Part shown: one piece after another, positions 41,870 to 43,157 of the stretch
How positions within the stretch are numbered: the first letter of the stretch is position 1
How the letters are laid out: each line of letters starts with the position of its first letter
NCBI GenBank assembly: GCA_000242935.3
Contig: CP007053.1
Coordinates: 186,001-250,000 of the forward strand
Reading direction: 5' to 3'
Length of the DNA stretch: 64,000 nucleotides
Origin: Opitutaceae bacterium TAV5
Lineage (GTDB): Bacteria > Verrucomicrobiota > Verrucomicrobiia > Opitutales > Opitutaceae
Notes under the pieces: generated by a model
The model's database searches: none
What the model was told of the DNA's origin: nothing
Seen by the model: only the letters and a program-made list of their open reading frames with translations
Program-made: the position numbers and the translations under genes

Positions 41870-42853
41870 TCATTCTTTCTTCCATCCGCCCAGCCCGAGC
41901 AATCCCTCGACCTGCTCGCCGATTTTCTTTTTCACGCCCTCGTCCAGCTTCGCCAGCCAGCGCGCCGGGATCGCCTGCACGCCCCACAATGCTCCCGCGA
42001 GCTGGCCCGCCAGCGCGCCGTTCGTATCCGCATCGCCGCCACGGTTGACCACATCCACCACACACTCCTCAAAACTCCCCGCTCGCAAAAAACCGTCCAG
42101 CACCGTCTGCACCGTATCCGCCACATAGCCGCTCGTCCTTCCCGGCCACGGTTCGAAGGCAAACACCGGATTCCGCGCCACCAGCGTATCCGCCATGCGC
42201 CGGCAATCCGCTTGCGTCCCGCCCGCCAGCAACACGCGCGTCATCCGCCCCAGCGCCACCGTCGCCTCGTCCGAAAGCACATGCCCGTGTGTAATCCGCG
42301 CCTGTTCCACGCTCCTTTGCACGAACACCGCATCGTCTCCCTCCACCAGCGCCGCCCGCCTTTCCTCCGCCGTCATGCCTCCCGCTGCCCGCGCCGGCGG
42401 CGGCGTTCCCAGAGCCACCGGCAGATTGCGCATCAGCGCGCCGTTGCCCCCGTCTTCCTCCGCCGGCACGCCCCGCAGCGTTCCCGTTTGCAAATACCGC
42501 CGGATGCCGCGCCGGCATGTGTTGCCCACATCCACCGGACGACTCTGCAACCACGCCACGAATGCATCCGCCACCGCCCGCAGATTCCAGCCTCCGCTCG
42601 CCAGCATCGCCCCGCCCAGCGCGAGGCACATCTGCGTGTCGTCGGTCACCTGCCCGGGTTTCAGCCGCAGCCAGCCGCCTCCCTTGATCGTATCGAGCAC
42701 GCCGCCATGCACCACCCGGATCTCGCGCGGCGTCATGAACTCGACGCTCGCCCCCATCGCATCCCCGACAGCAAACCCCAGGTACGCACCCAGCGCGCGC
42801 TCTTCCAGCGAAGGTTCCGACGAGGTCGTTGCAGAAAGCGAAAGCACATTCAT
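41870..42853 (-). CDS. draG: ADP-ribosyl-[dinitrogen reductase] glycohydrolase DraG
   Basis: 327 residues. ADP-ribosylglycohydrolase fold with the dinuclear Mn site: GAYLGFAVGDAMGASVEFMT, GQVTDDTQMCLALGGAM, and the C-terminal NRGGDADTNGALAGQLAGAL. Further blocks (KGGGWLRLKPGQ, VDVGNTCRRGIRRYLQTGTL, NGALMRNLPVAL, ITHGHVLSDEATVALG, GYVADTVQTVLDGF) match DraG proteins of diazotrophs closely, including the stretch between the metal sites. It removes ADP-ribose from an arginine of NifH and so reactivates nitrogenase. Divergent from nifH. The matching transferase DraT is not in the window. A general ADP-ribosyl hydrolase is the alternative. Confidence 0.88.
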   Translation of the reverse strand: MNVLSLSATTSSEPSLEERALGAYLGFAVGDAMGASVEFMTPREIRVVHGGVLDTIKGGGWLRLKPGQVTDDTQMCLALGGAMLASGGWNLRAVADAFVAWLQSRPVDVGNTCRRGIRRYLQTGTLRGVPAEEDGGNGALMRNLPVALGTPPPARAAGGMTAEERRAALVEGDDAVFVQRSVEQARITHGHVLSDEATVALGRMTRVLLAGGTQADCRRMADTLVARNPVFAFEPWPGRTSGYVADTVQTVLDGFLRAGSFEECVVDVVNRGGDADTNGALAGQLAGALWGVQAIPARWLAKLDEGVKKKIGEQVEGLLGLGGWKKE

Positions 42854-43083
42854 CCCGCCCCGCGCACTGCTTTTTCCGTGCCAACCGGAGCGGCGGTTCC
42901 GGCCGCCCCTCCGCCGAACCCGCCGCCCTACATTTCCGTAGGAACCCCCTGCCAGCCCCGACCCGTCGGTAGCTTTCCCGCCCCTGTCTCCTCCCGTGCC
43001 AACCGGCTCCGCAAAAATTCCACATTTTTATCCCGGCAGTCTCCAACGACTAACGATCGTGCGCACCACCCGCCGCAACCCCG

Positions 43084-43099
43084 TGGCACCGCTCCCGCT
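43084..43099 (+). promoter_or_regulatory. Sigma-54-like promoter ahead of nifH
   Basis: TGGCAC-cgctc-CCGCT: a perfect -24 element, correct 5-base spacing, and the invariant GC of the -12 element (CCGC in place of TTGC). It lies 59 bases before the nifH ATG. No clear NifA-type TGT-N10-ACA site was found in the 300-base spacer with draG, so activator binding may be further off or of another kind. Confidence 0.5.
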
Positions 43100-43157
43100 A
43101 TACGTCATCCGTTCCTGATACGACATAACCAACCATAACAACTCACTCCTTCCGCAT

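Follow-up and report, generated by a model that had tools for sequence, protein, structure and literature searches.

The draT gene of Opitutaceae bacterium TAV5 lies beside anfH, apart from draG at nifH: a predicted DraT/DraG switch split between two nitrogenase loci

In Opitutaceae bacterium TAV5, a draG gene is divergent from nifH and no draT accompanies it. The locus raises the question of which transferase would act opposite DraG, and on which nitrogenase. TAV5, a verrucomicrobial strain from a termite hindgut, has a chromosome of 7,317,842 bases and a plasmid of 99,831 bases (PMC4358385); the passages retrieved from that report treat nitrogen fixation genes only in general terms, with no occurrence of 'nif' or 'draG'. 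The genome examined here comprises 7,417,673 bases in two contigs, the long one of 7,317,842 bases. The window is the whole stretch of 64,000 nucleotides analysed around draG (G000:C1:186001-250000); positions without a prefix refer to it. Four of its genes concern us:

41870..42853, minus strand: draG, ADP-ribosyl-[dinitrogen reductase] hydrolase (ATG at 42853, stop at 41870, 327 aa)
43158..43982, plus strand: nifH, Fe protein of the Mo nitrogenase (TIGR01287, 444 bits; GCAGRG motif, target Arg97)
44188..45966, plus strand: nifD (TIGR01282, 663 bits, cut-off 653.55)
45924..47555 (listed frame), plus strand: nifK (TIGR01286, 441 bits, cut-off 427.3, residues 92-535)

Since the model match of nifK begins only at residue 92, its true start probably lies inside the listed frame. 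The divergent arrangement of draG and nifH (304 nt apart) and the retention of Arg97, both noted in the original prediction, are confirmed. The arginine is not diagnostic, because an Arg at this place is, to our knowledge, near-universal in Fe proteins.

The product of draG exceeds the cut-off of the NCBIfam equivalog TIGR02662 (376.9 against 337.05 bits, residues 16-320). Its closest solved structures, 2woc (E 8e-89) and 3g9d (E 5.5e-88), were both deposited as DraG and correspond to the enzymes of Rhodospirillum rubrum and Azospirillum; the next ADP-ribosylglycohydrolase structure is far weaker (E 3.5e-28). The likeness to DraG had been claimed for the whole length of the protein, and these matches bear it out. 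Residues E38, D71, D72, D108, D274, D276 and T277 are invariant among 21 aligned relatives and also align with the DraG structure 2woc; the acidic ones are presumably the metal and catalytic positions of the ADP-ribosylglycohydrolase fold. A closer kinship to general ADP-ribosylglycohydrolases, which was also considered, is refuted by the scores, as the general model NF041672 gives DraG 125 bits against its own cut-off of 490; we dropped this identity for the draG product. Judged from its sequence, the window protein is a true, full-length canonical DraG, and de-ADP-ribosylation of NifH by it is predicted. The genome has a second ADP-ribosylglycohydrolase gene, at C1:5426970. Its PA14 domain and a score of 20.6 bits on the DraG model rule it out as a second DraG and mark it as a general glycohydrolase.

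The transferase was found by a whole-genome search with PF07357. The sole match, G000:C1:325946-326704(-), scores 320 bits (cut-off 25), spans profile positions 1-255 of 256 and lies within the following frame:

C1:325931-326812 (L004:9931-10812), match on the minus strand: draT, 293 aa frame, PF07357

The gene is in the same genome, outside the window and about 97 kb from draG, so that the two are not adjacent in TAV5. The expectation that the window holds no draT, and that DraT must be elsewhere, was thus correct. Because a DraT is present in the same genome, the other option of the original prediction, that DraG works with another transferase, is not required and we reject it. Within DraT, Arg207, Ser236, Glu276 and Glu278 are invariant in an alignment of 21 sequences; we take Arg207, Ser236 and Glu276/Glu278 to be the R-S-E residues of ADP-ribosyltransferases. 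The protein has no match among the NCBIfam models, and a phmmer search against PDB chains gave nothing at E up to 10; it is assigned by the Pfam match. Modification of NifH and AnfH at the conserved Arg is predicted.

A second Fe-protein gene, anfH (at about C1:327205), is divergent from draT. On one side of the divide stand draT and nifB, and on the other anfH, anfD, anfG and anfK, the gene set of an Fe-only nitrogenase. The anfD and anfK models are matched above their cut-offs with 1099 and 932 bits; AnfH scores 466 bits on the nifH model and has its target arginine at position 99, while AnfG, without a model match, is recognized by its frame and its place between anfD and anfK. The nifB gene behind draT scores 360 bits (cut-off 344). 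Beyond anfK lies a gene for a sigma-54 activator, called AnfA by its place; its closest model is NifA, where its 475 bits fall short of the cut-off of 529. TAV5 has two nifB genes (L004:8227-9558 and L211:14524-15804), with proteins 87% alike; one adjoins draT, the other nifE/nifN-like genes.

The original prediction also stated that NifI genes are missing, and this holds both in the nifH-nifD gap, which is 205 nt long with no nifI between the two genes, and genome-wide. Genome-wide, four P-II genes were found, all encoding GlnB/GlnK-like proteins of 112 aa; none is NifI-like and none lies between nifH and nifD. Two of them each stand directly behind an AmtB-like gene, twice in tandem (the transporters were read by eye, without a model). 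On the GlnB/GlnK model NF008111 the four proteins score 166-172 bits, below the cut-off of 202, with E 4e-49 or better, whereas 32 NifI-like proteins are far weaker (E 1.4e-19 at best). We considered whether one of the four could be a NifI; the scores of all four against those of the NifI-like proteins rejected this.

Promoter-like elements were scored out of 27 for the sigma-54 type, with p values from shuffles (500 for anfH); the consensus, weights and activator motifs are taken from general background. Two elements lie between draG and nifH:

43083..43099, plus strand: sigma-54-like -24/-12 element towards nifH (GTGGCACCGCTCCCGCT), 21 of 27, shuffle p about 0.05
42868..42884, minus strand: sigma-54-like -24/-12 element towards draG (TTGGCACGGAAAAAGCA), 23 of 27, shuffle p about 0.01

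Near-identical elements stand 58-68 nt before nifH in the relatives G415 (p 0.07) and G437 (p 0.15). The draG-side element recurs in the congener Geminisphaera colitermitum TAV2, 18 nt before the ATG, even though draG is no longer by nifH there; a weaker one is seen in G415 (15 nt before the ATG, p 0.25), while G459 and G422 show nothing notable. Its role as a promoter is doubtful, because at 14-18 nt before the ATG transcription would start only a few nt upstream and leave hardly any leader. The region before anfH has a perfect site (27 of 27), a score reached in none of 500 shuffles. No sigma-54-like site points towards draT (p 0.76), so that its co-expression with nif or anf finds no support in the sequence. 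Sites of the forms TGT-N10-ACA and GTAC-N6-GTAC are absent from both intergenic regions; between draG and nifH there is no sigma-70-like site, and terminator-like sites number 2 against 1.9 expected.

DraT occurs in 18 of 200 genomes of the family. In eight relatives (G143, G415, G437, G442, G459, G391, G422 and G443) draT stands behind draG, with draG divergent from nifH, and TAV5 therefore retains the draG-nifH half of the commonest gene order. Elsewhere draG, draT and nifH run in one direction (G409), draG-draT occurs with nifH elsewhere or not found (G091, G394, G424), draT accompanies a divergent glycohydrolase (G397, G463) or stands alone (G493). In G394, G424 and G461 DraT lies on short contigs without nifH; G461 has two incomplete DraT pieces in one contig (L201:3392-3646 and 7506-8003), one of them at the contig end.

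In the draft assembly of TAV2 (G388), both draG and draT lie off nif and anf in the stretches examined. From the frames read, draG adjoins a helicase-like gene and draT (L182:9188-10075) is near a tyrosine-recombinase-like gene. The nifB-draT segment upstream of anfH is missing from TAV2, and the DNA that lies behind nifB in TAV5 joins directly there. Between the two strains the proteins are 82% (DraG) and 86% (DraT) identical, with conserved columns kept and frames free of inner stops in both.

The two proteins differ in their trees. DraG of TAV5, TAV2, G415 and Nm470_bin120 form one clade (99% SH-aLRT); DraT of TAV5 and TAV2 groups with that of G409 (96/97), away from G415 and Nm470_bin120. 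Forcing the four DraTs together costs 44 log units (p-AU 0.0007), or 21 units (p 0.019) once the two rows nearest G415 are added, although both p values are too kind, the groups having been picked after the first trees were seen. By these trees the DraGs of TAV5 and its sister lineage are sisters, but the draG-linked DraT of that lineage is not orthologous to the DraT of TAV5. Either DraT was replaced in the line of TAV5 and TAV2, or two ancient copies were sorted.

Two side observations concern the same neighbourhoods. The nifHDK DNA of TAV5 (43153-47557) and TAV2 (L185) is 94-97% identical, and draG and draT 77-79%; the likeness of nifHDK would reflect either strong constraint or a recent exchange. 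In Spartobacteria UBA695 (L230:4545-10771), draG-draT is divergent from the anfH of an Fe-only operon, and a dra gene beside such an operon is therefore not unique to TAV5.

We then asked how DraT relates to NifI in a phylum sample of 387 genomes. NifH is above the cut-off in 32 of them and DraT is present in 10, all among those 32. In all 10 the nifH-nifD gap is 63-208 nt, without NifI. In 16 of the 22 NifH genomes lacking DraT, the nifH and nifD matches are 811-1016 nt apart with exactly two frames of P-II size between them, and all 32 frames match Pfam P-II. Another five belong to a different nif type (f11) with gaps of 222-244 nt and neither NifI nor DraT, and the last, G213, is not scorable as its contig ends after nifH. 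All 16 scorable genomes of TAV5's nif type that lack DraT thus have two P-II genes between nifH and nifD, the type being defined by at least 77% likeness to the window NifH and by its NifI-carrying members. A wider set comprises 33 distinct genomes that belong to this type and carry DraT on the same stretch, and their gaps are 24-217 nt; the 33 are 44 rows less 10 for genomes entered twice and less L274, whose nifH neighbour matches NifD at only 29%. Single DraT-bearing loci of the other nif type, with gaps of 485 nt (L257) and 245 nt (L262), fall outside this statement.

The separation of DraT and NifI is complete in this nif type, but it follows clades. In a NifH tree made up solely of 46 chosen DraT rows, 22 DraT-less rows and 3 AnfH, four DraT/NifI changes are needed. 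Well-supported branches force only one or two, so the independent cases of DraT for NifI are few. The swap of post-translational switch suggested at the outset is supported as a pattern, DraT and NifI excluding each other in the sample with DraT/DraG apparently standing in for NifI, and the support comes from few independent cases. TAV5 is not exceptional in having DraG beside this type of nifH, as had been supposed: DraT with DraG or a DraG-like gene is frequent at such nif clusters in Verrucomicrobiota, and also occurs there in Planctomycetota, Holophagaceae and Kiritimatiellota.

What stands beside draT varies. We surveyed 67 named DraT loci. A canonical-like DraG (at least 44% identity) is found at 29 and a divergent ADP-ribosylglycohydrolase (24-33% identity) instead of DraG at 27; the remaining 11 have neither in the stretch examined, some stretches being short. 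One or the other enzyme is encoded within 317 nt of draT at 56 of the 67 loci. All 27 divergent genes are on the same strand as draT and 6-84 nt behind it, for example:

L119:17485-18393, L120:16810-17661, L123:1317-2207, L237:10762-11640 and others: divergent glycohydrolase, directly behind draT

On the DraG model the four that were tested reach 90-127 bits (cut-off 337). In the tree a single set of 30 rows (98%) takes in all 27 and three further glycohydrolases that are not beside draT; the branch parting all DraG from the rest reaches only 69%. Nine of the divergent enzymes were aligned, and these retain the conserved acidic columns. The divergent family may provide a second enzyme that reverses the action of DraT. 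A broader proposition, which we put forward tentatively and at somewhat less than even odds, is that in Verrucomicrobiota, Planctomycetota and Holophagaceae DraT generally replaces NifI on nitrogenases of the anaerobe type, that it was acquired repeatedly, and that in roughly half of these lineages its action is reversed by this second glycohydrolase family, encoded directly behind draT, rather than by DraG.

For TAV5 itself we propose, with a probability of about 0.85, an ordinary DraT/DraG switch over both the Mo and the Fe-only nitrogenase, with its genes split between the two operons. On a change of ammonium or energy status, DraT would transfer ADP-ribose from NAD to Arg97 of NifH and Arg99 of AnfH, and electron transfer from the modified proteins would stop. 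Under ammonium, GlnK-AmtB would sequester DraG; under better conditions DraG would strip off the ADP-ribose and restore NifH and AnfH. The pair would take the place of NifI1-NifI2, the switch encoded between nifH and nifD in the related nif operons of more distant relatives. The ancestral draG-draT pair would have been broken up in this genus, DraG being inherited and DraT coming, beside the Fe-only operon, from another DraT lineage.

Three other explanations were weighed. DraT might serve the Fe-only nitrogenase only, DraG at nifH being left over after the loss of its partner and the Mo nitrogenase having no post-translational switch. The place of draT beside anfH fits this, as do its lack of orthology to the draG-linked draT of the sister lineage and the missing sigma-54-like site, but DraG is intact with its residues kept, NifH has the target Arg, and TAV2 keeps both proteins even though draG and draT lie away from nif and anf in the stretches examined. 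The draTG pair of Rhodobacter capsulatus also acts on the Fe-only nitrogenase (PMC10803253, PMC6925177), and R. palustris has three nitrogenases whose Fe proteins all become modified once ammonium is added (PMC4554455). We consider this explanation unlikely.

That DraG is a general ADP-ribosylarginine hydrolase with a target other than NifH is very improbable: the fold is broad and NF041672 does match the protein, yet it does so far below its own cut-off while the DraG equivalog cut-off is passed, and draG lies beside nifH in TAV5 and eight relatives. Least probable of all is that the scattered dra genes are decaying and the switch is no longer used in this genus. The break-up of pair and partner, with draT near a tyrosine-recombinase-like gene in TAV2, could be read in this way; the open frames, the conserved columns and the levels of identity between the two species speak against it.

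The proposed DraT/DraG switch of TAV5 resembles the draTG(B) system of R. rubrum and Azospirillum brasilense in its DraG (TIGR02662), its DraT (PF07357), the target Arg of NifH and the P-II genes with amtB. In those bacteria draT and draG form one operon beside group I nif, whereas in TAV5 they are about 97 kb apart, and the other members of its NifH clade carry NifI or DraT. NifI1-NifI2 of archaea and anaerobic bacteria is likewise a post-translational ammonium switch on the same nitrogenase type, working through P-II-like proteins; unlike those systems, TAV5 has no two P-II genes between nifH and nifD. For R. rubrum, the passages retrieved describe a DraG-GlnJ-AmtB1 model with membrane sequestration of DraG via AmtB and a P-II protein (PMC6067124). 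R. capsulatus also has one DraT/DraG pair with Mo and Fe-only nitrogenases (PMC10803253), but its draTG genes are linked and those of TAV5 are split between two nitrogenase operons.

DraT/DraG in Verrucomicrobia is already published, and the TAV5 switch is of a known type. In Trout Bog Lake, Verrucomicrobia, of the same phylum as TAV5, and Acidobacteria have DraT and DraG genes near nifHDK, and Chlorobi and Desulfobulbaceae, where nif is accompanied by P-II genes, are contrasted with the draT/draG lineages (PMC7341956, passages retrieved). This contrast foreshadows the exclusion of DraT and NifI; unlike the present analysis, those passages contain no split pair, no dra gene at anf and no phylum count of DraT against NifI. 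Another paper describes the loss of nifI1I2 in Proteobacteria, records Fe-nitrogenase for Verrucomicrobia and notes that draG occurs in Frankia with no draT (PMC12903952); a draG lacking draT is likewise reported for Azotobacter chroococcum (PMC4465626). The retrieved passages of the open-licence texts searched mention no split pair, and they give no tally of DraT against NifI for this nif type.

Altogether, the missing transferase is located in TAV5, and two switches, NifI and DraT/DraG, appear to replace each other on the same nitrogenase type. The divergent glycohydrolase paired with draT poses a direct biochemical question. In TAV5, which is in culture, a single switch would govern the Mo and the Fe-only nitrogenase together from two genes at separate loci.
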